DNA from: Roseobacter fucihabitans
GTDB lineage: Bacteria; Pseudomonadota; Alphaproteobacteria; Rhodobacterales; Rhodobacteraceae
DNA: 64,000 nucleotides
Reading direction: 5' to 3'
Assembly (NCBI RefSeq): GCF_014337925.2
Contig: NZ_CP143423.1
Coordinates: forward strand, 1,518,501 to 1,582,500
Below the pieces are notes generated by a model. The model ran no database searches and was not told where the DNA came from. It was given only the letters and a program-made list of their open reading frames with translations. Positions 36,965-58,084 of this stretch are shown here, in pieces. Every line of letters starts with the position of its first letter. Position 1 is the stretch's first letter. The position numbers and the translations under genes are program-made.

Positions 36965-37065
36965 AGATCCGCCGTGATCCAAACCGGATGCTGCCTTCGC
37001 GCGTCCCCGACGACATGAGCTGTGCGAAACGCTGCACCTGCGCTCTATATTTGGGAGAGACCGTT

Positions 37066-37944
37066 ATGGTGCGCCGACCCACATCACGACGCGGGCTTGA
37101 TCTTGGCTCTGTTTTATCCGGCACGCGCCTGCGCGATTTGGGCGGCCTGTCGGGAGTGTCCGCGCGCGACCGTGAGCGGCTTGAACGGATCATCAAAGAC
37201 GCTGGCGATTTGAGCGGCATCCGCGCCGAAGACCTTGTGATCAGCCGGGACAAACCACCAGTCTTTGACGATTTGGGCGATTTCATCGGCAATATCGTCA
37301 AACCCAGAGAGGTGACTGACCTGCTGGAGGAGGTGGTGCGCCAACCGGTTCTGTCGGGAAAAGACCCGCTGCACGGTGTGACCACATCGCTGATGGCGAG
37401 GCTACGCAAGAAACGGCCCGAAGCCTTGCCGCAGGTGCCTGTCGCGACCGGCAAAAAGGGCGCGGAAGTACCGGTGAGCACAAAGGGTCTGACGCAATTG
37501 CTGCGACTGGCCGCCGTGCGGATCTGCGCGGGTGAGCCAAGCGTGATCTGGGATGACGGCATCAACCAATTGATCGTGCATGGCTCAAAGATCAGCGCAA
37601 CAGTCACGGATGGCATGGTGCGCATTGACATCAAGGTCGAAGCCGATGGCCTGTCCACCACAATGCAAATCCCCTTCGCGCTTGGCAGCGAAGAGCGCCT
37701 TTCGGGGCTTGTGATGGCGACGACTGACCGACCGGCGGGCAATGCGCTGGTGGCGCAGGTCTGGGGGGATGCGTTGATCGCGCTGGCGCATGGCGCACTT
37801 GTGGCGGTGAGCGAGAGCCTTGCTGGGGCCTCCGGGCGGGATGTGATCAACAAGCGTCTGGTGCCGCGTGCTTTGCGCGCCAAACGCGGTAGCCTCGTGG
37901 TGGAAAGCCAGGCGCGGTTCCTCTTCAAGGAGGACGGGCGATGA
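37066..37944 (+). CDS. Unknown protein, first coupled gene of the giant-protein locus
   Basis: A 292-residue soluble protein from ATG 37066, chosen because GGGAGAG lies about seven bases upstream; the open frame continues to 36988. No signal peptide or membrane helix is visible. A charged N-terminal half rich in aspartate and arginine ('SARDRERLERIIKDAGDLSG') is followed by a beta-rich half ('QLIVHGSKISATVTDGMVRIDIKVEADG'). No family is recognised. The stop overlaps the start of the 3280-residue gene (ATGA), so the two are probably made together and may interact. Confidence 0.8.
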   Translation: MVRRPTSRRGLDLGSVLSGTRLRDLGGLSGVSARDRERLERIIKDAGDLSGIRAEDLVISRDKPPVFDDLGDFIGNIVKPREVTDLLEEVVRQPVLSGKDPLHGVTTSLMARLRKKRPEALPQVPVATGKKGAEVPVSTKGLTQLLRLAAVRICAGEPSVIWDDGINQLIVHGSKISATVTDGMVRIDIKVEADGLSTTMQIPFALGSEERLSGLVMATTDRPAGNALVAQVWGDALIALAHGALVAVSESLAGASGRDVINKRLVPRALRAKRGSLVVESQARFLFKEDGR

Positions 37945-40900
37945 ATGCTTTTTCAGCAGATGAGTTCGGCGATACGGCGGATCTTTTGCGCGCGCTTGGG
38001 CTGGTCGATGCGGCCGGGGAATTCAACAGCGATTGGCTGGGCAATCCCGAAGCCTATCTGAAAACCATGCTGGCCGATGATGCGCAGCGTCAGGCGCTGT
38101 TTGATTTCGTGGCCACGCTGCGCGGGGGAGACACCGAACGCGATCCCGAGGGGCGTTTGTGGATCGAGCTTTTTGCTGAAGATCTGGGCGGTGGGTCGCG
38201 TATCAGCTTCTTTGTCATCGCCGATGATACGCCCGCCAGCGAAGTGCATTTGTTTCTGGGTGTGCGCTTTGGGACCGGCGCGCCCCTGGTCGAAAGCCAA
38301 TCCTCGCTGATGTTTCCGCTGTTTCGGGCGGGCAAGACCGGGCCTGCGCCGGACACGCCCGAACTGATCGGCAACAGGGGCGGCGTGATCGCCCTGACCA
38401 GCGATGTGACTGTTTCGGACACACCCGCCCCCCCCGGTGAGGCCGGGTTGCAGGGCGTCGGGTTGCGGTTGCTGATCCCGACACTGGCCACGGATGGAGC
38501 TCCTCAAATCGGTCTGACCCTGCGCGGGATGCAATTGCCCGGTCAATCCAGCGGACGCGATGTGATCCTGTCGCTGAGCGATCCTGACAGCCTGCGCGAG
38601 TCCGGGCTCGAATTGATTATCGCGCTGTTGCAGGCGCGGGTCGGGACTGCGGCGGGCGCGCAGATCGCGGGTTTTGCCAAGCTGATCGGTCTGGGGGATG
38701 ATCCTGCGATCCCGCCGCTGCCGGTAGCGGAATTTTTCGAGCGCGGTGTGGAGGCGCTTGGCGACTGGCTGGCGCAGGTGCTGGGCGATGCGCCGCGCCG
38801 CTCCGCTTGGTTGCAGGCGCTGGCGGATGTCTTTGGCGGTGCCGCTTTGGTGCAGGGCGATGAGGTTCTCATCACCCTTGGCGCGAGCGTTCTGCGCCTT
38901 GGCCTGCGCGCCGAAGCCGGGGCCTCGGGCAAGCCGGTGCTGACAGTCTCCTGCGCCTTCGGGCTGCGGGATGGACCAGCGGAGGTCGCCTTGCGCGCCG
39001 ATCTGGTGCGCCTTGATCTCGGGCTTGGCACGGCGCTGGCCGTTCCGATGCTGCGCGGGGAAGCGCGGTTTGATCTGTCGGGCGTGGTGATGCCGGATGT
39101 CTCTGTCGAGACGCTGGTGATCGGGTTCGGCCTGAATGCGGACCGCCGACCCATTCTGGTTGTGGAACTGCTCAACGCGGTTCTGTTCAACACCGCCCAT
39201 CCGCGTCTTGATCTGACCAATCCCGATGCGCTGGCCGCGACGGCCTCGGCCGCAATCACGGACGCGCTGGCCGAAGTGCTGGGCAACCTCGGACCGGGTG
39301 GGGATTTGATCGCGACCGTTCTGGGCTGGCAGGCCCCGCCCGGCGCAACGCCCACTTATCCGCGTATCGATCTGCTGGCGTTCCTGGGCGATCCTCTGGG
39401 CCGTTTGCGTACCCATTGGGAGGCGGTTCTGAACGGTCCGGCGGCGGATGTCACCGCAGGCCTTGCCGCTCTGCGCCATTTGCTGACGGGGGATGGCAGC
39501 CCCACTGCGATCACCGGGACGGGCACGGCGGGCGAGCCATGGGTGCTGCCGCTTGTGGCGGGGCTGCATGTGGCGCTGTGGCGTGACGCGCGCGCGCGGC
39601 TCGTCATCGGGCTTGCGTTCCTGCGACAGGTCGATTCACTGGGTCAGCGTTGCACCGTTCTGGAAACACGGCTGCGCGTCGGCATCGTCGCGCTCGATTT
39701 GCAAAGCGGGGCTGCCGGTTTCCTGCCCGAAATTACCCTGCGGGGCTTGGGGCGCGCGCGCGGTGGAGGGCGGTTGCGCACCGATCAGGGGGATTTTCGC
39801 CTGGAGGTGGATCACCTTGGCCTGCGCGCGCTCTGGACCCCGGAGGATGGGCTCGGGGTTACGATCGAGGCTCCAAAACCAACGGTCTATATCAATGGGG
39901 TGCCGGTGCCGCTGGACATACCGGATTTTTCCGGCGGTCTGGCGCAGAGCATCGCCTCCTTTACCAATGAGCAATGGGACGCGATTGAGCGCCTTGTGTC
40001 GCTGTTGGTCCACAAGATCGGGCAGGATTGGCTGAACGATCTGATCGAGGCAGTAGGATGGCGGCGCAAGACCCCGATCCTGGGCGCGCCGCAGCGTCAC
40101 CGATTGCGACTGGCCGATCTGATCGCCGATCCCGCCGAGGCCCTGCGCGGCTGGCTGGCGCGTATTCTGGCGGATGCGGACGCGCGGATCGAACAGCAAA
40201 TCCAACCTCTGGCGCGATTCCTGTCGGGCCGCCCGGCCGCACGGATCAGCGTGACAGGTCGCGGTACGCTGCGCGACCCCTGGCGTATTGCGCTTTCGGA
40301 TGCGCCACAGATGCCCGCCATCGCCGTCTGGCGTCAGCCCGACGCGCCGCTGCCTGTGCCAAATGCCTTTGCGTCCCTGCCGCTGCGCCGCTGGCGACCG
40401 GGTCGGGCGGGCTTGCCACCGGGCAAGCTGGCCCGCGCGATCCTGACCGAATTCCCGGACATAACCGGGCCTTTTGGCGCAGGTCTGGCACAGGAGGCGG
40501 TGAGCACCGGGCTCGCGGGGCTTGCGCGGCTCTGGCAGGGCAGCGATGGGCGTCTGCGTCCTCCGGCGGTTCCGATACCGGGCGCGACGGTGCATCTGAT
40601 CCAGAACCAGACCGCCCGCGCCATTTTTACAAACCTTGACCCTGCGCAGATCCTCGGGGTGCAGGTCGCGACCCGGATCACCGTTCGCGTGCAGCGCGCG
40701 AGCGCCGCAGTGGATGCCACCCTTAATCCCGCGCGGGTGTTGGATTTGCGCGAGGCAGGGCGCGATCCGCTGGCCTTCACGCCCTTGCCTGCGCAAAGCG
40801 GGGAATGGCATGTGTTGCTGGCCCCGCGCGATGCGGCCCGCTTGCCGAGCGGGGATGCCGATGGTGTTGCCGGACAGATCGCGCGGCTGCGCCATGCCCT

Positions 40901-43900
40901 GTCGCTGATTGCGGCGCAGCCGGATGTCTGCGTGATTGCGGATGCCGCCGCGTCGCATGCCTGCTGGCTGACACTTGATGCGATGGGCAGTGGTATTGAC
41001 CGGTTGATCACCGTCGGGATGCCGGTTGTCGCGCAACAGGTGCCCGTGACGCTCCCTGCAGTGCAGGGAGAGATGCTGCGCCGACTTGCCGAGTTTTTGC
41101 CCGATCTGGACCCTGCGGTACCGGATGACGATGATCTGGCGCGGGCGCGCGATCTTATCGGGACCTATCTGTCCGTGGATGCCACGTTGCTGGAGGATCT
41201 CGCTCTGCCGTTTGGTTGGTCGATGGAGACCCGCGCCGATTTGTCCCGGCATCTGGTCCATGGTGCCTTTGACACGGACGCAATCGCGCGTGCGATGAGT
41301 GCTGCGGTGGCCGCAGGGCTCAGCCTGAACGCGCAAACCCGCAACGCGCAACGTAAATTGCAGGACATGACTTCTGCGTCGCTGGGTGTCTGGCTGCCGC
41401 TGGCCAGTGCGCCGGGTACTACGGGGATACGTCTGCGCGGACATGGCCTGGCTGAAATCATCGGTATTGATCTGGAGCCTTCCGCCGCCCTCCCAGAAAC
41501 CAAGCCGCGCCCTGCGCGGGTGATTTCCGCGGCATTGGAGATTGCTCATTCGGGCGGCTGGTTGATTGGTGGGCCGGAGCGCGCCCCAAGGCCGCTTGAT
41601 CTGGAATTGCGCTCGCTTGAGATCGAACTGAGCCTGACGCTCGGGACTGCGGGTGCGCCAAAACTCAACCGCGCGCGCCTCGTGATGCACGGTGTACGCA
41701 TCCGCGGGCGCAGTTTTCCGCGTCTGGTCCTGTCGCCTGATCTCGCAGTGGCGGATCTTGGCATAGACGGGCAGGCCGCGCCCAGCATGCCCGAAATACA
41801 GGATATGTTGGGCCAGGTCTTTGCGCAAATGAGCGCGGCGGCGGACCCGAGCCTTGCCAAACTCGCCGATGCTGTGCGGGCCGCGGGCATCCTTGGCGCG
41901 GGCGATGCGCTGGATCCGCTTTCGCTGTCGAACTGGCTGGATGATCCGGCCGCGCGTCTGCGCGATGTGCTGGACAATCCGGACCTGCGCAACCGACTGT
42001 TGGACTGGGTGGCACAGGTCACAGGTGATGTGACGGGCCTCAGCTTTGATCCGGTGCGCCAGCAGGTCACGGTCGCGCTGTCGGGGGACACGGGCATGCC
42101 TGTCTTCACCGAATGGGCCGTGTCGAGCGTTATTGGTCCCGCAGGAGTGAGCAGTGCAGCGCTGCGGCTGGGGGCGCAGAGCGACACGCATCTGGCCGTG
42201 CCCTTGATGCCTTTTGCGGCCTCACTGACCCTTGGGAGGTCCCATGCCGACGCCCTTGGCGGCTTGCCGGCCGTTGTGCCGCTCTGGCCCGCGCCTGACG
42301 TGACGCGCCTGCTGGCAACCTCCGCACCGGCGCTGGCAAGCCACGCGATGGCCCGCCTGCTTGAAGGGTTGCGCGCCTCTGATCCCGGTGTGCGCCCCGT
42401 CGTTGATGCGGCCCTGAACGCGTTGGGGATGCTGGATAGCGCATCCGGCACGCCGCGCGTGGCGATCCCGCCCTTGATGTTCATCAACCCCGGTGCCTGG
42501 CTGCGTCTGGGGACGGTTCTGGGTACGCTGGACGGCGCGACCATCCGCCCGGAACGTGCCATTGCGCTGATGGAGGCGCTTAAGCCGCTGGTGGGTCTCT
42601 CGGGCGCGCCGGGCGTGTGGGACATTGCGCCGGGGCTGTCGCTGCGCGCGCGCAGTGCGGCTGGGCTCATCGTGGAATTCACGCTGGATCCGGCGCTGTT
42701 CATGCCGGGGGCGGATGTTGATTTCGGCGGCGCAATCGGGCTGCACATCGGGTCAGATGGGCGGGTTCTGCCTGCGCTTGCAGTATTTGTCGGGCTTAGC
42801 GGCGGCGTAGCAGGCCAGCGTGCCGTACATCTCGCCGTGGCCGGTGGGAGCACACGTCTCTTCCTGCGCAACGGCGCGGGCAGTGATCTGGAAATCTATC
42901 CCAACCCGGCGGGGCTTGGCCAATTGGCCACGCAGGGCGTGACGGCGGCACTTCCTGCGGCTTTGGACGCAATTGTTGATACCAATTCACCTGCGGGCGA
43001 TGTGCTGGGCGATATCGGGGATGCCTTACTGCTGCGCGTGGGCGGGAATTTCGATGGTGCCGCGATGATCTCCTGGGTCACGGATCCTGCGGGCACGCTT
43101 GAGGCCAGATGGATAGCGCTTTTGACGTCCGGGCTTGTCCGGCTTGGGGCGGCCTTGCCGAGCGATATCACTCTGACGGTCACCGCCGCCGGGGTGCGGC
43201 TTGAAATACCCGACGCTGGAACATCCGGTTCCACGGTGCATGTTGCGCTGAATGCCAGCCCGGTATCGCTCGAAGTCGGCGCGAACATCACAACAATTCC
43301 CTTTGTGCGCACTGTCTCAACCACGCTCAAGTTTGACGCCTCGGGCCTCGCGCTTTCGCAAGCCGGTGTGGGCCCCGCAGATATCCCGCTCAGCGATGGT
43401 ATCAGCCTGCGCCCGATTTTTGCGCTTGATGTCGGCAGTGAGGCCATGGACCCCTTCGTGTCCATCGGGCTGGCGGTGGCGGCCGACAACGCACAGGCGC
43501 TTGCATTGCGCTATGCGTTCAACAGCGAGAGCTTCGATCTGGGCTTTGGCAGCAATTCGCCCGAAGACATCGCCAGCGGGATCATGCATTTCGCCATTGA
43601 TCTGATCGGCTCATTCCTGCTGGAGCTTGAGGCCATCAACGACGTGCTGGATGAAACCATCGGTCCGGCAAATAGCACAAGCATCCGCGATCTGCTGACC
43701 GGGGTGCTGCTCAAACCGGGCGGTGGGCTTGATCCCGATCTGTTCCGTGTGATCATGAAACCGGGTGAAAGCCTTGAGGATCTGCTGGAGGATAAGCTTG
43801 CGCGGGTCATCACGCTGATCGCCAATGTGGCGGATGCCAACCCGACAGTGCGAGTGGGCGGCGAACTTGACATTGGCATCGCGCGTACCGGCGAAGTGAT

Positions 43901-46900
43901 TGGCTTCTCGCTGGGGTTGGCGGGCCGCTTGCCGCTGGTGGAGGGCGATATCGCGCTCTGGCTGGAAAACGATAGCCGCTGGATCATCGGCGGGCCAACG
44001 GCGGGGCTGAAAATCGGGCTGCTGCGCGAGAGCAGTGGCGCTTTGGCTTTTGAGCCGACCTTGTCCGTAGATGGTGTGGGCCTGCGCATCGGGCGTTCAA
44101 ACGGGCCACTCCTGGAAAGCCCGATTGCCATCGGGTCTATCGCGCTGCATGGGTTTGCGCGCTTGGGGGACGGCCAAAAACTGGGCGGTGCGCAGGTGCA
44201 GCTCTCTGAAATCGCCGTCGCCGTGGGCAGCGCTTCGGGCGACGAGGAGGGCGGTAACGCGGTCGCACAAGGCATGCTGGCGGAAACCAATGACGGGGAC
44301 GCGGCCCTCGCGCCCGCCTTCAGCCCCGCGCTGTCGGTGCAGACCCGCCCGAGTGCCGATGGCGGCGGCGTCGCGTTCCGCTTTGTCGCGGGCGAGGGGG
44401 AGGGGCCCTGGTGGCTGCCGATCCGCAGCCAGTTTGGCCCGATCTATATCGACCAGATCGGCCTTGGCACTCAGATGTCGGAGGATACGCTGCAAGCGAT
44501 TTCGCTGCTCTTTGATGGTAATGTCTCCATCGCCGGGTTGCAGGCGGCGGTGGATGATCTGGAACTGCGCTACCGGTTGGACGCGGGTGGCATCTTTGAT
44601 CCGGCCTCCTGGTCGGTCGATCTGGCCGGGTTGGCGGTTTCGGCGGATATGTCCGGTGTCGTGCTGGCGGGGGGCTTGCGTAAATTCGAGATCGAAGGCA
44701 CCGACAGCATTGATTATATCGGCATGCTGGCCGCGCGCTTTGGCACCTATGGGTTGTCGCTTTACGGCGGCTATTCCGCGATCAAGGGCGATGATCCCTA
44801 TTCAGCGTTCTTTGTCTATGGCGCGGTGCTGGGGCCTTTTGGCGGGGTGCCTGCGTTTTTCCTCACCGGCATCGGGGGCGGCTTTGGCATCAACCGCGAT
44901 CTGATCCCCCCGACCAGCCCCGGTGATTTTGACGATTTCATCATGATCGCGGCCCTTGATCCGGCCTTCAGCCCGGATGGCGACCTCAACGCAGACCTCG
45001 CCGTGATCCGTGGCAATTTCCCCGAAAAGAAAGGCAAGTTCTGGTTCGCCGCTGGCATCAGCTTCACCTCCTTCGCGCTGGTGGATGGGATCGCCGTGGT
45101 GGCCGTGGAATTCGGGCAGGGCTTTGAGCTGTCGATCTTCGGACTCGCGCGCATGGCCCTGCCGCGCCCGCAAGTGGCGCTTGTTTCCATCGAACTCGGC
45201 CTCATCGCGCGGTTTTCGACCGAGGAAGGCGTGATCTGGATACAGGCGCAATTGACTGATAACTCGTGGCTTTTGCACACAAGCGCGCGGCTGACGGGCG
45301 GGTTTGCCTATGTCAGCTGGTTCAAGGGCGACAAGGCGGGTCAATTTGTCATCACGCTGGGCGGGTATCACCCCAATTTCCACCGCGACGGATACCCCGT
45401 GGTGCCCCGGCTTGGGTTTAACTGGTCCGTTTCCAGCAATATCGTCATCAAGGCGGAGGTGTATTTCGCCCTGACGTCCGAGGCGATCATGGCGGGCGGG
45501 CTGTTTGAGGCCAGCGCCAAATTCGGCCCTGCCTTTGCGCATCTCAGCTTTGGCGGCAATGCCATCGTCTATTTCGACCCGTTCAATTATGAGGCGGATG
45601 CCCATGCGCGCATTTCGGCGGGCATCCGGATTTCGACGTGGTTCGGGACCATCCGGCTTTCGTTCAGCCTTGGGGCCTATATCGAAGTGCGCGGCCCCGA
45701 ATTTCACGGCACGGCGCGCATTGAGATCGGACCCATCGACATCCATGTGCGGTTTGGGGATAGCTCGAAACCCCGTGGGGCGTTGGTGTCCTGGAGCGCG
45801 TTCTGCGAGAAATATCTGGAACTGGCCACCAATGACAGCGCGCGCGCCATCAGCGCAATCGCCGGTCGCGGTGCTTTGCCCCCGGCGTCAAGCGACGGCG
45901 AGGAGGCGGGCAGTGCCGATGGCAGTGCTGCGCATCCCTATGATGTCACAAGCGAATTTGAGCTGTCCTTTACCTCTACGATCCCGCTGACGGCGATCCT
46001 GTGTGACGGGCGTGTCGTGGCCACGGGGGCCAAGCCAAATCTGGGCGTGACGCCTTCGGGCAAGGCGGTCAAGGTCAGCCGGCTGATCCTGAGCCTGAGG
46101 CGCACGGATGGAGGGGCTGCAAGCCTGAACCTGCCTGACAGGATCTTCCTGAGCGCGCGCAGGACCGGCAAATTCCCCATCGGGGTCTGGGGTCCGCCGC
46201 AGGATGATGACACGCGCAAAATGCCCAAAGGTGATGTGATCACCGCGACCGAGGGGCTGGATCTCCAGTTCAAATCCGTGCGCTCCAGACGCATCCCGAA
46301 TGATGCATCCGGCGGTGTGGGCTTTGATCAGGTCGAGCCCGGACAGCGCAAACCCTTGCCGTTGCGCGCGGCGGGTGCTTTGCGCGCCAGCCTCCTGCGG
46401 GTCGCAAAAGAACAGCGCGCCCTGCTCAGTGCCATGAACCCGGATAAAATGCCGCAATTTGCCTCCGACTGGCACGGTGCGGCGCGCCAGGCGACGGCGC
46501 AACGCTCTTTCGCGCGCGCCCGCGCCGTTCCCATGCGGATCGGGCTCCTGTCTGAACGCATTATCGGGACGGCGGCGGCGGGTAAAAAACGCGTGAAACT
46601 GGCCCCCGGACAATCCACCAAGACCGTAACATTTGGCAAGGCGCGGTTGCGCGGGCTGATGGTGCAGCCGGTCCGCATGGCGCGCAAGACGGCCGTGGAT
46701 GCGGTCACAAGCGTGACGATGACCGCATCGATTGCCAAGAACCTGAAGCGCATGTCGCCCCCCGCGTTGGTGCTTAATCCACAAATCGCCGGGATCACGC
46801 CGGTCCTGTTACGCGCCCAGATCGGTGCGCCCAAATCCGCCAAAACGCTGGTGGCCGCCACTGTTGTGCCCGAGACAGTTTCAGCTCTTTCGTCTTTCTC

Positions 46901-47783: not shown

Positions 47784-47792
47784 GACAGGGAT

Positions 47793-49910
47793 ATGGTCGC
47801 CAGAGGCAAATTCTTTTTATACGACTACATCGTGCCGCCTTTGCCAGCGGGCCGTTACAAATTGAATGCCACGCTTGATCTGAGCGTTACCGATGGTACC
47901 GATACGGCGGTAGCACCGCATGATTTGCATTTCAACGTCACCGCCCCGCGCCTGAAATTGCCACCCGATCAGGCGCTGATGACCTTTCCCCCGGCGCATT
48001 CTGAAGGGGCCTATGAGGCCCGCTTGCCGCAGATCGTCTTGAAAAAACGCACGCTGCCATGGGATCGCCAAGCGGCCCCCGTGGGCAGCGTGTTTCATGA
48101 GCAAAGGGTGGAGGAGAGTACGCCCTGGATGGCGCTGGTGGTGATCGCCGAAGGGGAGGGCGAGATCCAGCACGACCAACCCGCCGCCGATTGCATCACC
48201 GCGCCCAGGACCTTGCCCGGCAATTTCGACACCCCGCGTGCGAGTTGTCTGTCGGTGCCGCAATCCACTGTGGATAAGGTGTTTCCGACGGTTCAGGACC
48301 TGTCGCTGCTCAGCCATGTGCGCGAAGTCAATGTGGATGATACCGAAAACGCCATGGGCGATGATGACGGGTTTCTGGCCGTGGTCATTGCCAACCGGAT
48401 GCCGCAATATGATCACGACACCTGCAAGCCCAAGGCCTATACCGCCTGTCTGATCAACCTTGAAGGCCAATTGGATGTCTTGCCGCCGCCTGCACCCCCG
48501 CGGAGCTTCTACGAGTTGTCGGACCTGTTCCTGAGCGCTGAAATCGCGCGGTTCGCGACATCTGTGGGGTCCGGCACGGCGGTGCCGCAAACCCTCACCA
48601 TGGAGCCGCGCCTGCTCGATCTGGGCGATGCCGGTGCCATGGTGGATGCCGTTCGGCGCGGCGAGGTGGTGTTTCATGACGGCACGGTCGTGGATAGGGC
48701 TGGCGGCACAGCGGAGGGGCTGAACGTACTGGGGCGTATGGATTCGGCCGCCTTCCTGGAGGGCGATTTCGCATCGCTTTCCGGCGTGAGCGAGGATGTT
48801 GGCGCGATGGCCGTGCGCCGCGTCGAGGGGACGTTTTCGGGGTTCAACTTCCCGCTGGAACGGCTTGTCACGGAAAAGATTTACCGCTTTCCGGTCCTGA
48901 CATCCTGGCGTTTCACCTGTTCAGGCGCGGGCAGCTTTCAGCAATTGATGAGTTCGCTTGATGTTGGCCTGTTGGGGACCGTGACGCCGGGGGGCTACAA
49001 GCGCGCCTTGCCCGATTGTGTGACAAAGGTGAAGGGCAGCGACCCCGGCGCGCCCCCCGTGACAAAATTGCCGCTGGAAATGGCGGAGACCGGTCACGTC
49101 GGCCTGCCGCATCTGACGCGTACCGGGGAAAACGCCAATGCATGGTATCGCGGGGCTTTGTCGCCACATCAATTGCTGCGCAACCCGCTGGCGCAGGAAG
49201 CGCAGTTCCCGGTGCTGGCCCATATCAGCGATCATTTGCGGATGATGACGCCGGATGGGCGCGAGGATGTGTCGCTCGCGGTGGCCTTTGAAACCGGGCG
49301 TCTTCTGGCGATGTCCCAACCCTCCTTCGTGGCCGCGCTGCAACGCTGGCGTGCCGATAAGTTCGGAGCGCGTCGTCGGCAGTTCGCACAGGAGGCCGCG
49401 TTTCGCGACGGCCCTGATCTGCTCGATACGTTGATCAGCGATTTCGATAATGACGCCATTCTTGAGGCGATCAAGGCCGGGCTGATCCCGCAACTCATTG
49501 AGGGCGGGCTGATGCGTGCGCTGGACCTGCGCCGTGAACGCACGATTTCCACACCTGTCGAATTGGTTAACCCCGGCGTTGAAGCGCAGGGGCTGGTGGG
49601 CGATTTTAATGCCTTCCTGGCAGATGGGCTTGGCATGGACCGCGCCATGGTGGATCAGATCGCGGCCCAGCCGGAAAACATGGATGCCTTCGCGCGCCTG
49701 CAGGCCGCAGAACCCGGTGGGATCAGCACCCGCGAGATTAACCTGAACGGGGACATAGACGCCCAGCTTGGCGATGTTCTGGACAGTGGCATCGCGGATC
49801 TGGCCAGCGCCACGATCGGCACGCGCGACATCCGCGAAGATACCATCAAGGACCTGAATGAATTCTCCTCCTTTGACCTCTTTGTCAAAGACCGGTTTGA
49901 GAGGAACTGA
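47793..49910 (+). CDS. Unknown 705-residue protein of the giant-protein locus
   Basis: Starts nine bases after the giant gene. The N-terminus ('FFLYDYIVPPLPAGRYKLNATLDLSV') reads like a beta-sandwich, not a signal peptide. Distinctive segments are 'LSLLSHVREVNVDDTENAMGDDDGFLAVVIANRMP', 'NAWYRGALSPHQLLRNP', and 'EDVSLAVAFETGRLLAMSQPSFVAALQRWR' followed by a helical C-terminal third. Six cysteines occur, clustered in the first two-thirds. From memory such segments recur in hypothetical proteins of other large-genome bacteria, but no function is known to me. One base separates its stop from the next start. Confidence 0.85.
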   Translation: MVARGKFFLYDYIVPPLPAGRYKLNATLDLSVTDGTDTAVAPHDLHFNVTAPRLKLPPDQALMTFPPAHSEGAYEARLPQIVLKKRTLPWDRQAAPVGSVFHEQRVEESTPWMALVVIAEGEGEIQHDQPAADCITAPRTLPGNFDTPRASCLSVPQSTVDKVFPTVQDLSLLSHVREVNVDDTENAMGDDDGFLAVVIANRMPQYDHDTCKPKAYTACLINLEGQLDVLPPPAPPRSFYELSDLFLSAEIARFATSVGSGTAVPQTLTMEPRLLDLGDAGAMVDAVRRGEVVFHDGTVVDRAGGTAEGLNVLGRMDSAAFLEGDFASLSGVSEDVGAMAVRRVEGTFSGFNFPLERLVTEKIYRFPVLTSWRFTCSGAGSFQQLMSSLDVGLLGTVTPGGYKRALPDCVTKVKGSDPGAPPVTKLPLEMAETGHVGLPHLTRTGENANAWYRGALSPHQLLRNPLAQEAQFPVLAHISDHLRMMTPDGREDVSLAVAFETGRLLAMSQPSFVAALQRWRADKFGARRRQFAQEAAFRDGPDLLDTLISDFDNDAILEAIKAGLIPQLIEGGLMRALDLRRERTISTPVELVNPGVEAQGLVGDFNAFLADGLGMDRAMVDQIAAQPENMDAFARLQAAEPGGISTREINLNGDIDAQLGDVLDSGIADLASATIGTRDIREDTIKDLNEFSSFDLFVKDRFERN

Positions 49911-49911
49911 T

Positions 49912-50928
49912 ATGGCGCTCGCCCAATACATGACCCTGCAACTGCTGGCCAATGCGGTGGTGGATACTGTCGCAACAGATGGCGGACGGATCACACCGCC
50001 CGAAATCCTGACATTTCTGGGCAAACTGCGGATGCTGGAAGGGGTGCCGTTCAACAATCTGGTGCCGGATGAAGAGCTGTTGCCCAATGAATCGATCCGG
50101 TTCTTTCATCTGGATCGGGCCTGGAGCGATGCTTTGGTTCAGGGCGCCTTGAGTGTGGCAACGACCAATTCTGTTGAACGCGCGCAGCTCGAGCAGCTCT
50201 ATCCGACCATCGAGAGCGAAGTGGATGAGGTGGAACGCGAATACCGCGCGCCGGGGGGCGAGCCGGTGTTGCGCGGGCCTGCGGGTCCGGTCTCGGGGTT
50301 TTTGTTGCGCTCGGCCGCCGTGGCGGGATGGCCGGGTCTGCATGTGCGCGCCTATAAGAACGAGCCCGAGGCGGGGGATACGGAGATTGCGGATGAGGGC
50401 GACCCATCCCGCATCAAGCTGTTGCGTCTGGAACGTTTGTCGCCTGCGGTTCTGTTGGCACTGTTTGATGGCATTCCCAAGGTGCTGCACATTGAGGAGC
50501 CGCGTCAGGGTATCCAGTTTGGCGTAAACCTTGAGACCAACGCGCGCACCAAGCGTACCAGCGCTACGGTGCCCGCGCGCAATGTGGAGACCGGCAATTA
50601 CGTCAATGGCGCAGGGGTCGAGCAGGAATTACCCACGCGGGCCGCGCAAATCCCGGTGCGGTTTCGTCGCGGTGCGGCGGGTGTGCTGGACCTGTCCAAC
50701 ACCGCGCGGGGTTTTGCGGATGCGAGCGCCACGGGGATGAGCACGGCGCCCGGTGATCCGGTGAACGGTGCGGAGTTTGCCATGCAGATGATCCGTTTCC
50801 CCTACCGGCAGATTTTTGCACAGGACGTGGCCACGACCGCCACGCAGAATGACGCCTTCAAGCCGACGCTCGCCAGTGTTTCTGCGCGCTATACATCTGT
50901 TCTGAAAAAGAAAATACGGGAGGATTGA
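49912..50928 (+). CDS. Unknown 338-residue protein of the giant-protein locus
   Basis: Begins one base after the preceding stop at ATG 49912; the longer frame would overlap the upstream gene. The N-terminal part is helical ('YMTLQLLANAVVDTVATDGGRITPPEILTFLGKLRMLEGVPFNNLVPDEELLP'), the middle mixed ('GPAGPVSGFLLRSAAVAGWPGLHVRAYKNEPEAGD'), the end basic. No signal peptide, membrane helix or recognised family. The segment 'LLRLERLSPAVLLALFDGIPKVLHIEEPRQGIQFGV' looks like a domain core. Its conservation beside the 705- and 1269-residue partners would be the main clue to a complex. Confidence 0.83.
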   Translation: MALAQYMTLQLLANAVVDTVATDGGRITPPEILTFLGKLRMLEGVPFNNLVPDEELLPNESIRFFHLDRAWSDALVQGALSVATTNSVERAQLEQLYPTIESEVDEVEREYRAPGGEPVLRGPAGPVSGFLLRSAAVAGWPGLHVRAYKNEPEAGDTEIADEGDPSRIKLLRLERLSPAVLLALFDGIPKVLHIEEPRQGIQFGVNLETNARTKRTSATVPARNVETGNYVNGAGVEQELPTRAAQIPVRFRRGAAGVLDLSNTARGFADASATGMSTAPGDPVNGAEFAMQMIRFPYRQIFAQDVATTATQNDAFKPTLASVSARYTSVLKKKIRED

Positions 50929-50930
50929 GC

Positions 50931-53900
50931 ATGGCAGACCGGATCAAACCAGGCCTGATGAAATCCATCCTCTCCAGTGGAAACTGGGCGTTGGCCAGCG
51001 GCGTTCAGGAACAGGTGCTGGATGCGCAACAACTGTTTGCGAAACCCACACCAAAACCGGATCCCGCCTTGTTGGTGCCTGTCGATGTGCAGGCGCTTTA
51101 CGTGCCGACATCGCATAGCGAACGCTATGTGCGCCTGCCTTTGGAGCTGGGCGAAGGGGCGAAAAAAGGGGAACACATCGCGCCGTTTTCGATCCCGCGC
51201 GCGCGTTCAAAGGGGGTGCATCTGCACTGGGCCTTGCCGGATGGGTTGTTGCGCGGCGAGATGGTGGAGGATGCCGACACACCCGTAAAAATGCGCGCCC
51301 TGCCCAACAGGTGGCTTGTGGTGCGCATGAGCGGGCGGCAGGGGCGCAGCAAGCTTGATCTGCGCACGTGGCTGATCGAATCCGATAAAGGCCGCGTGTT
51401 CGATCTGCCCAAATACCCCGCGGATGCCGCGTCGATCTCGCCCCATGCGCTCGATCCTGAGCAATTGACCGGGATTATGGGCGGCTCGCCCAACTGGACG
51501 GCCTCCTATGACGCCAGCCTTAACCGTTTTGCCTTCCATGATCCGCTGGATGATATCGACGCCGGGCAAGTGATGACAAAACAGGCCAGCTATGTCGTGA
51601 TTGGATGGTGGTCCGAGCGCAACCTCGATCCGCTGGCCGGGCTGACCTTGCCCTACGGCGTGCCGCGCCGGATCGCGGGGTTCAACTGGACCGCTTCCAC
51701 GGCCCCCTTTATCACCGCGTGGCAATCGCCCAAAGCCGTATTGGCCTCGACGCAAACCGAGGCGGTGGATATTGAGCGCGTCGATATGCGCAGCGCCTTG
51801 AAGCTGAGCACCTCGCAGATTGGCCTCGCGGCAGGTTTCCGCGAATATGAATTGGACGAGGTCGTGTTGCAGCGTATCCGTGCGCGCTACCAGACCGTGC
51901 TGCACGGCGCGGTCTACGGTGTGCCGATCATGGGCGGTGTGGGCAAGGACGCAGCACCACGTGCGCGCGACATCAACCTGTCCATGGCACCGACATTGGA
52001 GCGGTTGATTGCCGCACAGGCCGCCAGCGGTATGGGGATAAGATCGGCCGCGAAAAAGGAGTATTTCGAGGCACTGATCACGGCGGTGGCCAATACATCG
52101 TTGATGAACGTCGCCACCAGTGACGGTGTGGTGGCCTTGGATGAGGCCGAACACGGCGATGGGTTTGAGGCGTTTCAGGGTCCCGAAACCTATGAGGATG
52201 TCATCATCACACGCCAGCAATCCGCCCTGAAGGCGGGCAGGCCGCTGCGCACGAAAGAGGCCAAGGCGACAACCCCTGAGGCGCTGCGCGCGCAGGTGAT
52301 CTGGAACGGTCGGGTGCGCGGCAAGACCATGTCCACGCGCGACGCGCTGCGCCGCAAGAGCGAAGACATCAAATACCGGATCAAACCCGGCGAGGTTGTG
52401 GAGGACGGACCCGAAACGCGCAAGGTGCGCCGCCCCGGTCCGCGCTATCATCGTCCCACTTCGCCGGTCATCGGTTTGCGCAACTATGGGCGCGCACAAC
52501 GGTTTCTGGGGGATGGCCGGTTTAACGATGAGAACAAGCTGGTCTGTCGCTGGTCCGATGAAATGACCGTGCAATATGGCGAGGGCTATGAGGCCAAAAC
52601 CTATGTGCCGCCGCTGGTGAACAGCGCCGTTCCGGCAATTGCCAACCGCATCATCCAGAACAGTTTCATGGGCGATCTCTATATGATGCCGTGGATTTTC
52701 GATGCGATCAAAGCGGTGGTGCGCGGCGACGCGGTAGGGCAGACGCAGAACCGGTTGCGTGGGGAAATGGCGCTGCGTTATTCGCCGGATGGGGTCTATG
52801 ATGGCATTGTTCCTCTGGCGCGCAAGAACCCCGAAACACCCCGTTCCGCGCAGATCGCGGTGAGCGATGCGATGCGCCGGTTTTCGCTGGCCGAGGGGCG
52901 CGAGCCGAGCCCGGTGGCCGTGACCAGCTGGGTGCAACCCTGGTCGCCGGTCTGGCTGGAATGGGAGGTCGAACTAGCACCGGGGCGCGGGTTTGAGGGC
53001 TGGTCGCTGGGGCGTATCGAATTTGACGGCGCGCCGGTGCCGCAGGGCGAAACGCTGACCCTGCTCGGGCGTTCGGCCATCACCTCAGGCGTGGCGCGGA
53101 CCTACCAGGCAGTGATCGACACCTATCTGATCGCCGAAAACCAACGCGATGCGGCGGATGCGGGGGAGATTGGAGAGCTTCACGAGGGGACGCTGTCCCG
53201 GCTCGCGGCATATCTGAAAAATGCCGATCTGGGCTCGGTGACGCTGGACCGGATTAACGATCTGTGGCTCGCCATCGAGACCGGTCCGGATGGCCAGGTG
53301 ATGCCTGCGCCCGCCGCCGTGTCCGATGCGCTGCGCGCGGCGGGTTTGCCCAACCTGATCGCGGACGGCACCCTGCGCCTGACGCGCGCCCGCATCGTGG
53401 ATAGTTTCGGGCGGTTTCGTGATGTGAATACCTCAGGGATCACACTGCCCACCGCGCTGGCCACCAAAACGGAAGGTGGCGATACCGCATTGGCGATGCC
53501 GCCGCGGCTCTCCTTGCCCGCGCGGCTGATGTGGCGATTTGTGGATCCCGGTGATACCTCTGCGCGGCCCGCTGAGGGGCGGCTGGATCAAGCCACGCCC
53601 GCCAATATGGTGAACCCGATCTCGGGGTATGTGCTGCCCGATTTCATTGATGAATCGCTGGAGTTCTTCGACCAGACCGGCCAGCCGCTGGGTGAGGTTT
53701 TGCATGATCCGATCACCGGCGGGTTGATCTGGGAGGGCGGTGTGGGGCGTGAGGGGCCTGCTTCCGGCTCGCCGCGCGCGGATTTGCCCAAATCGGCGCG
53801 GCTGTGCGGTGAAATCGCTCAAGGCATGATCGAAGCGGATGTGTTTCAGCGCAACACCCCAGAGCATCGCGACAAGGAAAGCCCGCTGAGTGCGTTTTTG

Positions 53901-54740
53901 CGCGCGGTGGATACCACCAGCTGGAGCGTGGACAGCAGCCTGATGTCGGCGGGCGCGACCATTGCCGGTCTGGTCGGGCGGCCCGTGGCGGTGGTGATGA
54001 CGCAGCTTTGGCTCGATATCCCCGAGGACCTTGCCAAAACCGGTGCTTTTGGGGACAGCGGGGATGATATCCGTGACCATCTGGTGCGCGAGGCGGTGTT
54101 TGACGCGGTCAAATCGCGGGCCTTCAAGGTGCGTCTGGGCGAAATCGCCAAGGGGCATGACGGGCTTTACGGATTCTTCATCGGGGAGGATTACGCGCAT
54201 TTCCACCTGATCGAAAAGGAAGTGGCACAGGCCGCTCTGATCAGTCGCAGCGGTTCCGGTTTCCGCGCGCTTCTGGGCGGGGTGGGCGATCAGATGGGGT
54301 CCAATGCGCTGCCAGCGCCCAGCCCGCTGGACACACCCTATATCGGTGCAGGCGAGCCGCTGAGCGTGCATGTCGGGCAGAAACTGCGCCTGACGTTGCT
54401 GATGCATCCCACGGCGCGGGTGCATGCCACCACGGGCTTTTTGCCGCGCAAGTCACTGGAATTACTGAATGACTGGGTGTCGCCGGGGCTGGGGCGTGTG
54501 GCACCTTCGGTACGTATCGGGCCGGTGATCATTGATCCTGACCGGGTGCGTTTGCCCAAAATCGCCGCTTTTGGCGCGGATCAAACCTGGACGCGGCGCA
54601 ATACGCCGATCACCTGGCGCGACGATCCCATTCTGGCCGCGACCCAGGCCGCGCTGCTGCCAGGCGGGCGCGCGAGCGTGCAGGAGGGCTACATCCGCAT
54701 CACGCCGGAGGGCGGTGCCAAGATCGGGGAGGAGTCCTGA
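50931..54740 (+). CDS. Unknown 1269-residue protein of the giant-protein locus
   Basis: ATG 50931 is chosen: GGAGG at 50919-50923 is correctly spaced; TTG 50925 overlapping the upstream stop is the alternative. Early segments 'GVHLHWALPDGLLRGEM' and 'LPNRWLVVRMSGRQG', a middle with 'SWVQPWSPVWLEWEVELAPG', and a late 'NPISGYVLPDFIDESLEFFDQTGQPLGEV' plus 'VGRPVAVVMTQLWLDIPEDL' suggest several mixed alpha/beta domains. No signal peptide, membrane helix, catalytic motif or repeat toxin signature was seen. The stop overlaps the propeller gene by one base (TGATG), implying reinitiation. I recall similar segments only in uncharacterised proteins. Confidence 0.85.
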   Translation: MADRIKPGLMKSILSSGNWALASGVQEQVLDAQQLFAKPTPKPDPALLVPVDVQALYVPTSHSERYVRLPLELGEGAKKGEHIAPFSIPRARSKGVHLHWALPDGLLRGEMVEDADTPVKMRALPNRWLVVRMSGRQGRSKLDLRTWLIESDKGRVFDLPKYPADAASISPHALDPEQLTGIMGGSPNWTASYDASLNRFAFHDPLDDIDAGQVMTKQASYVVIGWWSERNLDPLAGLTLPYGVPRRIAGFNWTASTAPFITAWQSPKAVLASTQTEAVDIERVDMRSALKLSTSQIGLAAGFREYELDEVVLQRIRARYQTVLHGAVYGVPIMGGVGKDAAPRARDINLSMAPTLERLIAAQAASGMGIRSAAKKEYFEALITAVANTSLMNVATSDGVVALDEAEHGDGFEAFQGPETYEDVIITRQQSALKAGRPLRTKEAKATTPEALRAQVIWNGRVRGKTMSTRDALRRKSEDIKYRIKPGEVVEDGPETRKVRRPGPRYHRPTSPVIGLRNYGRAQRFLGDGRFNDENKLVCRWSDEMTVQYGEGYEAKTYVPPLVNSAVPAIANRIIQNSFMGDLYMMPWIFDAIKAVVRGDAVGQTQNRLRGEMALRYSPDGVYDGIVPLARKNPETPRSAQIAVSDAMRRFSLAEGREPSPVAVTSWVQPWSPVWLEWEVELAPGRGFEGWSLGRIEFDGAPVPQGETLTLLGRSAITSGVARTYQAVIDTYLIAENQRDAADAGEIGELHEGTLSRLAAYLKNADLGSVTLDRINDLWLAIETGPDGQVMPAPAAVSDALRAAGLPNLIADGTLRLTRARIVDSFGRFRDVNTSGITLPTALATKTEGGDTALAMPPRLSLPARLMWRFVDPGDTSARPAEGRLDQATPANMVNPISGYVLPDFIDESLEFFDQTGQPLGEVLHDPITGGLIWEGGVGREGPASGSPRADLPKSARLCGEIAQGMIEADVFQRNTPEHRDKESPLSAFLRAVDTTSWSVDSSLMSAGATIAGLVGRPVAVVMTQLWLDIPEDLAKTGAFGDSGDDIRDHLVREAVFDAVKSRAFKVRLGEIAKGHDGLYGFFIGEDYAHFHLIEKEVAQAALISRSGSGFRALLGGVGDQMGSNALPAPSPLDTPYIGAGEPLSVHVGQKLRLTLLMHPTARVHATTGFLPRKSLELLNDWVSPGLGRVAPSVRIGPVIIDPDRVRLPKIAAFGADQTWTRRNTPITWRDDPILAATQAALLPGGRASVQEGYIRITPEGGAKIGEES

Positions 54741-57700
54741 TGACCCGCTATAACTGGCCCCGCGAATTCAGGAAATCGCCCGATAGGCTGGCGCGTCGCC
54801 AGGAACATGCGCTGCGCGATACGGGCATCCCTTTGCCGGAGGGGGCCTTGGGCGATCTTGACCTGCTTGATGAGGTGATCGCGGCCAATTTCGACGCGGC
54901 GCGCAGCTGGATACCGATTGGCCCCTCGATCATGACCAATGGTCAGGCGACCGGTGATCCCATTGTCGCGGGGCGGGTGCGCGCCATCAATGTCAGCCCC
55001 GACGGGGAGCGCATCTATGTCGGCAGCGCCAATGGTGGCGTGTGGTATTCGCGGGATGCGGGGGTCTCCTGGGATCCGTTGGGGGCGGGGGGTCTGGCGA
55101 CGGGTGCGAACCGCTCGGATCTATCCCTGACCACGGGCGCGCTTTGGGTGGAATTCGGCGCAACCGGGGGCGTGGATGAACCCGCCAAGGATGTGGTTTA
55201 TGTCGCCACGGGCGAGGGCATACCGCAATTTGGCGAAATTCCGGGCAGAAAAATGGGCGGCATCGGCGTGTTGCGGCTGGACGTGCCCTTACCCGAGGCG
55301 CTGGCAAACCCGCTGCAAAACCCCTGGAAACGCGAAGCGCGCAACCTCGCAGGGCAGGGCATTTTCCGTCTGGCGCGCGACCCCGGCGTGACACCGACGC
55401 TGGGCGGGGATGCAACGCTTGTGGCGGCGACATCGACCGGGCTTTGGTCGCGCAGCGGTGGTTTCATTGAGGACGCTGATTGGCAACGGGTTGAATTGAC
55501 GCCCACGCCTTTTGCGGATTTGTCTGAGTGGTCCTATTGCTCGGATGTGATCTGGAATGACAAGGGGCTTTGGGTCACGCTGGTGGACAGCGCGGCGCAG
55601 GACGGGCTTTACCATGCGCCCAACGGCCGGGCCGGGCCGTTCCGCCGGATCGCGCTGCCGGGCCTCGAGACCGGTACACGTCTCAGCATCGCGGCGGCAC
55701 CGGACACGGACCGGCTCTATGTGCTGGGTAAGGTTCCGTGCCCCTTTGTCCCCGGCACCAACCCCGGATACGCAGCCCTGTGGCGCGTCGATCTGACCAA
55801 TAGCACCACACAGGCGCGATTGGTGCGCAACATGCCCATCGGGCTTTTTGTACCAGGGGTCACGCCGGATAACGCGGGCAATCGGATCAATGATGGCGGA
55901 GATCAAAGCGCGCATGATCAGGCGATCTCGGTTCGCCAGGTCGGGGCGAATGATGTGGTCACGGTGGGCGGCTCGATGGAGGATAACGGAGCATTTGATG
56001 CTGCGCTCTTTGATCTGACCATTACCGGGCCCGCCACAAATCCGACCACTGATTTTCTTGACACCAACCAAACCACGCCAGCGGCTGATCCGACCTTCAT
56101 CGGGGAGGGGATTCACCCGGATGTGCATGCGGTGACACAGGCAGGCACGACGCTTTGGGTGGGTTGCGATGGCGGCGTTTTTCGCCGCAACGGCGGGGTG
56201 AACCAAGCAATGAATGCAGGTCTGGCGCTGGCTGAACCGGGTTACATTGCTTCCCACCCCGGCCTTGACGGCCCCGTGATGGCAGGCACACAGGATAACG
56301 GCACGATCCAGCGGATTGGCGATACGGTCTGGAGCCTGGTCGTCAAGGCGGATGGCGGCGGGTGCCTTTTTCATCCTACAAAGCCGCATATGCGCGTGAT
56401 GCAATACGTCCATGCCACATGGAGTTTTGAGCCGGATCAAATGGTGCCCCTTGGCCCGGTGATCCGCACGGAACCGGCCACCGATGATGAAAACAGTGAG
56501 GATGCGCGGTCGTCGTTTTATTCGCAATGTGCTGTTGCGCGCGCGACGCTTGATGAGGATGCGCGGCTTTTCATCGGCACGGACCGGATCTGGTATTCGC
56601 AGCGCTGGAACGACCGGACCATCGATATGGGGTGGGTGACGATCCCCACCTTAACCGATGGGGCTCCCACGGCCCTTCTGACCCAGGATCAGCTGACGCA
56701 GGGGGGCAACCCGGATTTTGTTCTGGCGATCGATATCCTGCAGGAGGGAGATCGGGCGGATGCCTATGAGGGGACGGCGTTGCTCGTGCTTTGCGCGCGT
56801 AGTATCAGGATTTTCCGTTCTGCGCGCACCACGCCCTCGGGGCCGCAGGTCTGGACCGTCCCGAACGCTTCCATCATCAGCAACCCCTCGAGTGCCGAGC
56901 GTCCCAAGAGCAAATATCTTGACGACGACGAACCCAACCCGTTTCTTAACTACCTGCCGGACCCGCATATGAGCGCCTGGACCGATATCGCCGTGCATGA
57001 CACGTCGGTTGCGGGACAGGAAACATTCTATGTCTCTACCACGGGGCAGCGCTCGGAGGATGCCAGCGGTGCCCTGCTCAGCGATCCCTTATATGACACG
57101 CTGTGGTGGTTTGACGGGCAGGGGCGTTGGTATCCGACGGGCCTGCGCAACGCGCCGCTGGATGCGGGTGCCGGGACGGGCGGCTCGCCCACGGCGGCGC
57201 ATTGCGTGATCGTGAACCCCGAAGCGCCCGACAACGTCTATGTGGGCAATCGCATTGGCGTGTGGCAGGGCGTGATTGATCAAAGCGGGGAGCATCCCAC
57301 ATGGACCTGGCGTCCGGCGATGGAAGGTTTGCCGCAGACGCAGGTGCAGGATCTGAACATTTCCGCAACAGAGGCGGGGACATTCCTGCGCGCAGCCCTT
57401 GTGTCGCGCGGGGTGTGGGAGCGTGATATTTCCCTTCTGCCGGCCTCCGTGGGGCGCAGCTATATCCGGACCGTGCCGCATGACACCGGGCGCGTGATCC
57501 TGCCCAATGAGGTCAAGAACCCGCTGGATGATACGGTCCTGACTTTCCACCAAAGCCCCGACCTGATCCTGTTGCCCAGCGGCGCGCATCGCTGGGATCC
57601 GGGTTTTCCCAATGAGGCGGATATGCTGGGCGCGCCGTCACCTGCGCGCTATGACAGGGTGATGCACGATGTCTTTGTGATGATCCATCACCGTCACACG

Positions 57701-58084
57701 ACTGCCCTTGCCGCGGGGGATGCCAATATCGACGTTTTCCTGCAAAAGGACGCGCCCGCCGGGCCGCTGAGCGACTTTGCCATGACGCCCCCCTGGCGCA
57801 GTTTCATTGAACAGACCGTACTTGGCAACGCCCCTGCACCCGTGGCGGGGTTGACGCATTTGGGGCGGCGTAATCCGAGCCTGCCGGTGGATGCGCGCAC
57901 GCCGCGCGCGGTGAAACTCTCGCTTGATCTGGGCTATGCAGGGGGCGGGCGGCACGGGATGCTGATTGCGGTGGTGACCTCGCCGGGCAACCTGCTGGCC
58001 AGCGCCGATCTGGCACCGGCGAACCTCAAGGTGGTGGTGCGCAGATCGGCACAAATTGCCGTCCGCAGGTTTCTCCGCCGTTAA
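54740..58084 (+). CDS. 1114-residue BNR/Asp-box beta-propeller protein of the giant-protein locus
   Basis: Last gene of the locus. After a charged start (residues 1-50) the segment 'GRVRAINVSPDGERIYVGSANGGVWYSRDAGVSWDPLG' (79-115) is a beta-propeller blade with an Asp-box (S104-W111, S-x-D-x-G-x-x-W). More blades follow ('VVYVATGEGIPQFGEIPGRKMGGIGVLRLD', 'TLWVGCDGGVFRRNGGVN', 'MAGTQDNGTIQRIGDTVWSLV', 'NVYVGNRIGVWQGVIDQSGEHPTWTW'). The final 200 residues are a separate domain. Such propellers are usually extracellular glycosidases or binding proteins, yet there is no signal peptide and no obvious sialidase catalytic set. Probably a recognition or scaffold subunit. Confidence 0.87.
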   Translation: MTRYNWPREFRKSPDRLARRQEHALRDTGIPLPEGALGDLDLLDEVIAANFDAARSWIPIGPSIMTNGQATGDPIVAGRVRAINVSPDGERIYVGSANGGVWYSRDAGVSWDPLGAGGLATGANRSDLSLTTGALWVEFGATGGVDEPAKDVVYVATGEGIPQFGEIPGRKMGGIGVLRLDVPLPEALANPLQNPWKREARNLAGQGIFRLARDPGVTPTLGGDATLVAATSTGLWSRSGGFIEDADWQRVELTPTPFADLSEWSYCSDVIWNDKGLWVTLVDSAAQDGLYHAPNGRAGPFRRIALPGLETGTRLSIAAAPDTDRLYVLGKVPCPFVPGTNPGYAALWRVDLTNSTTQARLVRNMPIGLFVPGVTPDNAGNRINDGGDQSAHDQAISVRQVGANDVVTVGGSMEDNGAFDAALFDLTITGPATNPTTDFLDTNQTTPAADPTFIGEGIHPDVHAVTQAGTTLWVGCDGGVFRRNGGVNQAMNAGLALAEPGYIASHPGLDGPVMAGTQDNGTIQRIGDTVWSLVVKADGGGCLFHPTKPHMRVMQYVHATWSFEPDQMVPLGPVIRTEPATDDENSEDARSSFYSQCAVARATLDEDARLFIGTDRIWYSQRWNDRTIDMGWVTIPTLTDGAPTALLTQDQLTQGGNPDFVLAIDILQEGDRADAYEGTALLVLCARSIRIFRSARTTPSGPQVWTVPNASIISNPSSAERPKSKYLDDDEPNPFLNYLPDPHMSAWTDIAVHDTSVAGQETFYVSTTGQRSEDASGALLSDPLYDTLWWFDGQGRWYPTGLRNAPLDAGAGTGGSPTAAHCVIVNPEAPDNVYVGNRIGVWQGVIDQSGEHPTWTWRPAMEGLPQTQVQDLNISATEAGTFLRAALVSRGVWERDISLLPASVGRSYIRTVPHDTGRVILPNEVKNPLDDTVLTFHQSPDLILLPSGAHRWDPGFPNEADMLGAPSPARYDRVMHDVFVMIHHRHTTALAAGDANIDVFLQKDAPAGPLSDFAMTPPWRSFIEQTVLGNAPAPVAGLTHLGRRNPSLPVDARTPRAVKLSLDLGYAGGGRHGMLIAVVTSPGNLLASADLAPANLKVVVRRSAQIAVRRFLRR

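Follow-up and report, generated by a model that had tools for sequence, protein, structure and literature searches.

Closest described systems

Several described systems share features with the locus analysed here, a cassette of six genes in a 64,000-nucleotide stretch (the window) of the Roseobacter fucihabitans genome. Extracellular contractile injection systems and tailocins resemble it in having a large conserved core without Sec signals and, as in some lineages of the cassette, a variable, fibre-like last gene; their co-occurrence with it in genomes is weak. Tc toxin complexes likewise pair a giant first protein with several large partners, and the sizes of their A- and C-class proteins are comparable to those of the cassette. 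Repeating beta-groove and AsmA-type lipid-transfer proteins are tandem arrays of amphipathic beta units in which one face is hydrophobic, an arrangement also predicted for the giant protein A of the cassette. The repeating beta-groove unit consists of five strands and a loop, whereas the unit of A is predicted to have 7-8 strands and a helical bundle, and A has no membrane anchor. Bacterial triacylglycerol lipases share their core fold with a domain embedded in A, but in the window this domain lacks the nucleophile serine and lies inside a giant protein that does not resemble an enzyme. Apolipoprotein B-100 (ApoB100) is, like A, a very large protein with amphipathic beta-sheet and appears among its structural neighbours, although the match is no better than those to unrelated porins and A has no vitellogenin Pfam match. 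A shares the Pfam domain DUF6603; the Pfam entry describes a single domain of unknown function, whereas the cassette comprises six genes, a giant repeat extension and a lipase-type insert.

A six-gene cassette

The window covers positions 1,518,501-1,582,500 of the largest contig of the 4.85-Mb genome. The cassette, at 37066-58084 of the window, consists of six plus-strand genes (P1, A, B3, B4, C and D) that together encode 6998 residues. These genes very likely form one multi-protein system, and the system has a likely connection with lipids. The features are as follows.

37066-37944, plus strand: P1, 292 aa (open reading frame translation; no Pfam family match)
37941-47783, plus strand: A, giant protein of 3280 aa (open reading frame translation, Pfam and locus comparison)
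37959-40358, plus strand: N-terminal repeat units of A, at about 37959-38573, 38583-39212 and 39222-39911, with a fourth from 39939
40476-41288, plus strand: embedded alpha/beta-hydrolase domain of A, triacylglycerol-lipase type, nucleophile serine absent in the window (profile A12)
41853-43712, plus strand: further, diverged repeat units of A (HHalign probabilities 75-94% among An 1299-1548, 1467-1695 and 1660-1918)
44427-45830, plus strand: DUF6603 domain of A (PF20248), a predicted long amphipathic beta-meander (Pfam and AlphaFold)
46041-47747, plus strand: C-terminal region of A (Ac), mixed beta with disordered linkers
47793-49910, plus strand: B3, 705 aa, without a family match above cut-off
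49912-50928, plus strand: B4, 338 aa, without a family match, highly conserved
50931-54740, plus strand: C, 1269 aa, without a family match or a sequence relative in the PDB
54740-58084, plus strand: D, 1114 aa, BNR-like beta-propeller at about residues 55-930 and a C-terminal domain at about 930-1114; putative recognition arm

Translations and junction bases confirmed what the initial annotation had said of the six same-strand genes, their sizes, overlaps and gaps. P1 and A share an ATGA overlap at 37941, A and B3 are separated by 9 bases, B3 and B4 by 1 base and B4 and C by 2 bases, and C and D overlap in TGATG at 54740. The fixed stoichiometry that had been deduced from this translational coupling does not follow from it. 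The start codon of P1 is uncertain, since translation from an in-frame ATG at 36988 would yield 318 aa, and an alternative in-frame ATG at 49858 would extend B4 to 356 aa. Long antisense open reading frames (up to 851 aa) inside the cassette genes were taken as by-products of high G+C, and a tRNA-Ala called by ARAGORN at 48779-48861, also inside the cassette genes, was taken as a false positive. The cassette frames are more than chance because the same frames recur in the same order in other phyla, at about 25-90% identity.

The cassette is conserved as a unit

A scan of the genome collection gave 198 relatives, of which the best 79 loci were kept; the counts from these loci therefore lean towards close kin. 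Thirteen of the 79 contigs stop inside A, and the remaining 66 were used for B3. A B3 match was present in all 66 loci with DNA beyond A, and it directly adjoined A in 61 of the 64 that had 1.5 kb or more remaining. B4 was found in 62/62 loci with at least 3.3 kb left. Where at least 7.5 kb was left, C lay downstream of A in 55 of 58 loci and upstream in two (L114, L117); the upstream position of C was seen in Bacteroidota, one cyanobacterium, one Aminicenantes bin and one alphaproteobacterium (L034). Among the 50 loci with an A of at least 3000 aa, 41 have P1 ahead of A, and the conserved part of P1 is its C-terminal ~160 residues.

Co-inheritance was examined in a sample of 394 genomes of the window's family. 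DUF6603 occurred in 16, and B4 and C each occurred in 11; these were the identical 11 genomes, all among the 16 with A. Three of the five A genomes without B4 and C have a gene beside A that is related to only part of B3, and the other two (L032, L033) showed neither B nor C. The initial annotation had proposed that the genes form one system and had named singly occurring homologues as evidence to the contrary. The conserved order across phyla, and the finding that B4 and C never occurred without A in the 394 genomes, bear out that proposal; the exceptions (L018, L032 and L033) are weighed below.

Variant forms were also found. A second type, seen in haloarchaea, Paraburkholderia and Gemmatirosa, has just a part of B3, archaea carry a shorter form of the cassette, and B3 and B4 are fused in several short forms. 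The N-termini of type II A proteins had no match to the A repeats, and neither did a ~780-aa family encoded upstream in Bacteroidota loci. Plasmid relatives occur in Paenibacillus, Streptomyces and Embleya, and a tblastn scan of viral contigs with A gave no relatives. On the plasmid of Streptomyces sp. NBC_01276, CATRA/CHAT-type conflict genes (L014 2645-7701) lie ~5 kb upstream of the DUF6603 cassette.

A tree of A was built from the first 560 residues of each of 65 sequences. The closest relatives of the window's A were from Roseobacteraceae and Paracoccaceae. The tree spans eight labelled phyla, and the phyla are intermixed, with 10 label changes for Pseudomonadota and 7 for Actinomycetota (starred branches force at least 8 and at least 6, respectively). 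This mixing matches the prediction of transfer between phyla, and bins and paralogues could also produce it. The intermixing of Actinomycetota and Pseudomonadota means that the system serves both one- and two-membrane cells.

Protein A is a repeat protein with predicted amphipathic strands

Residues 2163-2630 of A match DUF6603 (Pfam E 4.2e-117, 392 bits against a curated cut-off of 27), and in an identity comparison this domain and B4 were the most conserved portions of the cassette. Comparison of the A profile with itself revealed internal repeats of ~220 residues (HHalign probability up to 98%). The N-terminal repeat unit has ~205-230 residues, with a helical part and 7-8 long strands. Counts of repeats and of the hydrolase domain are based on 48 loci out of the 54 whose N-terminal part is complete. 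The short A proteins of three alphaproteobacterial loci (L025, L028, L030) combine a single unit that resembles the first with a segment that resembles the last part, so the giant A looks like an expansion. Ac is a separate gene in two archaeal loci.

AlphaFold models covered residues 7-806 and DUF6603 with the C-terminal part. The first (mean pLDDT 83.2, pTM 0.49) alternates helical and long-strand units; Foldseek found no match to it at E <= 0.001, and its best VIA-align hit had Z 8.5 over 99 residues. The second (mean pLDDT 80.6, pTM 0.53, DUF6603 mostly above 85) predicts a long up-and-down beta-meander. Its best Foldseek match was a barrel protein (E 1.3e-4, TM only 0.12), and VIA-align returned OccK2 (Z 15.8, rmsd 11.5, 271 aligned) and ApoB100 fragments (Z 15.3, rmsd 9.7, 267 aligned). 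Porins gave Z ~14-16 with rmsd 11-12 and TM 0.1-0.15. A search of a viral fold library gave low-TM matches only, and the A N-terminal profile had only a weak match to MspA in the PDB (E 0.027). We read the modelled DUF6603 as an amphipathic sheet of porin- or ApoB-like type, with membership in neither family.

The modelled strands are amphipathic. The odd-even hydropathy difference averaged 2.93 over 26 strands of DUF6603 (1.49 in shuffles) and 2.74 over 20 strands of the repeats (1.59 in shuffles), and in both models none of 2000 shuffles reached the observed value.

A lipase-type module accompanies A

The lipase-fold profile A12 (29 rows) matched bacterial triacylglycerol lipases in the PDB (1qge, 1tah, 1cvl; best E 9.1e-7). 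As a single sequence, the lipase region of the window's A had no Pfam match and was detectable by profile only; in single relatives, this region gave sub-threshold Pfam matches to PGAP1, LCAT or Abhydrolase. The domain is present in 43 of 48 aligned A N-terminal parts. Among the 29 of these 43 loci that were aligned for the nucleophile serine, 7 retain it and 22 lack it; the window has lost it.

All five loci whose A lacks the domain (L108, L109, L110, L111, L115) have a nearby Lipase_3 gene, upstream of A in four and ~3 kb past D in one. The gene beyond D, at L111, was seen in extra DNA fetched for that locus only, and a profile of the five Lipase_3 proteins found no further one in the other locus stretches, which were not extended in this way. 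The five loci form one supported clade (100/99). In the Pseudoalteromonas locus (L111), the lipase gene downstream of the cassette is followed, a few kb further on, by a polyketide synthase-like gene of 2395 aa (L152 1392-8579, minus strand).

The last position is exchangeable

The D profile matched PDB entry 3b7f (E 2.8e-8), annotated as a glycosyl hydrolase BNR repeat; D is a BNR-like propeller. Of 25 genomes searched, 19 have a propeller D next to the cassette, and one more has a weak match elsewhere. The initial annotation had called the last gene a propeller with a recognition role; the propeller was found, and in other lineages the last position behaves like an exchangeable recognition slot. 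There the slot proteins share conserved N-terminal domains and differ in their C-termini. The product at L114 matches Pfam Collar (E 3.5e-16) and Gp10_C as well as PHROG tail proteins (E 7.4e-38), others contain GIGT-type repeats or Ig-like parts, and 2-3 slot genes stand in tandem at L014, L015, L025, L117 and L119.

The two slot anchor families look related to each other (HHalign 71.5%). No profile similarity was found between the propeller D and the fibre-type anchor domains; the description of D as an exchangeable arm therefore rests on position rather than homology. In Poseidoniales, C is followed by the gene of a 792-aa protein (L153 120-2498) whose start resembles a signal peptide and which contains thrombospondin type 3 repeats.

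Comparison with known families and contractile systems

In Pfam searches of the six proteins, DUF6603 was the only match above cut-off, with none for P1, B3, B4, C or D. NCBIfam gave nothing above cut-off for the six, and PHROGs no match for five of them and the last third of A. In a PDB sequence search, the profiles of B4, C, B3 and DUF6603 found nothing below E 1, and neither DUF6603 nor PF20248 is named in any of the 5.39 million papers searched. The earlier statement that no known domain is present proved only partly right: the proteins contain DUF6603, the degenerate lipase-fold domain and BNR repeats.

A contractile tail or tailocin was rejected, as the six proteins had no sheath, tube, baseplate or ATPase match in Pfam or NCBIfam. 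A Tc toxin complex was set aside on a comparison at sequence level only (no TcA, TcB (SpvB) or RHS Pfam match up to E 0.1), and an AsmA-type transfer protein on the absence of AsmA, TamB or chorein Pfam matches in A; the lack of a Foldseek match to the modelled repeats does not count against a groove fold. An outer-membrane porin was rejected, since relatives occur in one-membrane cells (Actinomycetota) and in archaea, and no evident signal peptide was seen. A defence system was rejected with no PADLOC (anti-phage defence) match among the six proteins. Neither an S-layer homology domain nor an anchor or evident signal peptide was found in the window proteins. Judged by sequence, the cassette matches no described system, including the injection systems and S-layers that had been named beforehand as matches that would refute the proposal.

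The sheath gene PF17482 was present in 7 of the 16 DUF6603 genomes and in 54 of the 378 others of the 394-genome sample (one-sided Fisher p 0.0056), a count that includes ordinary phages and is uncontrolled for relatedness and genome size; the link is weak. In the window's own genome, a sheath locus (L162-L163, G000:C1:142000-176000) with PF17482 in an 802-aa frame lies ~1.4 Mb from the window, and from the sheath match and a reading of its open reading frames its neighbours look injection-like. On a Paenibacillus plasmid, baseplate-V genes lie ~9-12 kb from DUF6603. Genes of baseplate-V, DUF4280 and toxin-like type (L013 1-6221) were observed several kb upstream of the DUF6603 cassette on the plasmid p-YT9A of Paenibacillus polymyxa.

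Export-related features and genomic setting

A simple Kyte-Doolittle scan of the six window proteins showed no hydrophobic N-terminus and no clear membrane span, the highest 19-residue mean being 1.88, within DUF6603. This agrees with the earlier statement that signal peptides and membrane spans are lacking, and nothing marks the proteins for Sec export. Cysteine makes up 24 of the 6998 residues (0.34%), compared with 78/4849 (1.61%) in 15 flanking genes chosen by the author, and the median in relatives is 0.22-0.49%. Such low cysteine fits a location outside the cytoplasm and also fits beta-rich repeats in general.

The cassette is flanked by metabolic genes upstream and by a mechanosensitive-channel gene on the opposite strand downstream. 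A sigma-70 scan upstream gave no sites, and no terminator was found downstream. Elsewhere in the window, 24974-25261 (plus strand) matches the Rfam 5' ureB sRNA (118 bits), antisense to a urease-alpha-like gene at 23705-25414 (minus strand); this match probably reflects conservation of the urease gene itself.

A candidate particle and its alternatives

We tentatively favour, as possible, a large particle whose body engages lipid and whose recognition arm is exchangeable, and which would leave the cell without the help of signal peptides. By analogy, it may work like fibre-armed tail particles or toxin complexes, although by sequence it matches none of them. The fixed order and co-occurrence, the lipid link, the amphipathic strands, the recognition slot, the low cysteine and the spread over one- and two-membrane cells support this reading. 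In this reading, A would extend amphipathic beta-sheet into a very long rod or shell, with the lipase-type module as part of it, and would bind lipid or wrap around it. The near-invariable followers of A, namely B3, B4 and C, would be the assembly hub, and D (the propeller here; tail-fibre-like, Ig-like or tandem proteins elsewhere) the recognition arm. Once assembled, the particle would work beyond the cell that made it, reaching the medium by a route that needs no signal peptides, lysis being one example known from tail-derived particles. With the arm docked on a target surface, A would engage the target's lipids. A more specific form, which we consider quite improbable, is a prokaryotic counterpart of lipoprotein particles, in which a giant ApoB-like beta-protein would wrap lipid, carry a lipase-type module and be aimed at other cells or surfaces by an exchangeable arm, the whole being one cassette passed between bacterial phyla and present also in archaea.

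Several points weigh against a particle. Its assembly, release, lipid binding and role in attack or delivery are steps that we infer, and tail, sheath, tube or pore homologues are absent from the cassette in Pfam, NCBIfam and PHROGs. The cassette contains neither an evident signal peptide nor a lysis gene. With the serine missing, catalysis is not expected of the lipase-like domain in the window, and the lipase swap is confined to one clade and so represents one exchange event. Ordinary beta-rich proteins often share both the low cysteine and the amphipathic strands. The cassette is also incomplete in places: L118 has no C within its available stretch (1/58), P1 was not seen in 9 of the 50 long-A loci, L032 and L033 have DUF6603 without a recognisable B or C nearby, and the Paenibacillus plasmid locus L018 has B and a split C with no A within its 29-kb stretch. 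As to the arm, 5 of the 25 genomes had no propeller D match, the gene after C at L100 looks unrelated, and in the alphaproteobacterial set D has an identity like that of the rest of the cassette and is not faster-evolving.

The same evidence can be read in other ways. A could be a giant lipid-binding or transfer scaffold inside the cell (a granule coat or transfer rod) to which D recruits partners. The lipase-fold domain or separate lipase gene, the amphipathic repeats, the lack of signal peptides in the window proteins and the ApoB100 fragments among the DUF6603 structural neighbours (though porins score equally) are consistent with such an internal machine; the very low cysteine and the tail-fibre-like last-position products elsewhere, one with a signal-peptide-like start by eye (L034), make it rather unlikely. 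The Collar, GIGT-type, Ig-like and collagen-like products beside relatives, the haloarchaeal loci that adjoin genes annotated as surface proteins and the thrombospondin-type-3 repeats after the Poseidoniales cassette, would suit a secreted or surface-attached adhesive scaffold or sheath in which D is an adhesin and the lipase part vestigial. A sheath, however, needs neither amphipathic repeats nor a lipase module, and since the window proteins have none of the S-layer homology domains, anchors or evident signal peptides looked for, we regard this as unlikely.

A complex of enzymes acting on lipids or polyesters, with the propeller binding the polymer and A as a substrate-binding platform, would account for the lipase-type domain or gene, for the glycosyl hydrolase annotation of D's nearest PDB sequence match and for a PhoD-like phosphatase directly upstream of one haloarchaeal A (L040 7337-9994). 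That phosphatase was not found by phmmer in the other locus stretches. The loss of the serine in the window and in 22/29 aligned rows, and the absence of any other catalytic domain among those found, make this complex quite unlikely. We consider it very unlikely that the cassette is an accessory of extracellular contractile injection systems, with the particle or its parts working with that machine. The commoner sheath in DUF6603 genomes, the sheath locus in the window's genome and the baseplate-V genes on the Paenibacillus plasmid point towards it; a sheath match is missing from 9 of the 16 DUF6603 genomes, the window's own sheath is distant, and the limits of the sheath count given above apply here as well.

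If the reading as an exported, lipid-engaging particle is true, the cassette would represent a large extracellular or lipid-carrying assembly of a new class. About 7,000 residues have been kept as one ordered cassette in eight or more named phyla, in bacteria as well as archaea. Even if that reading is wrong, the conserved A-B-C core and the lipase module provide the first testable context for this DUF family.
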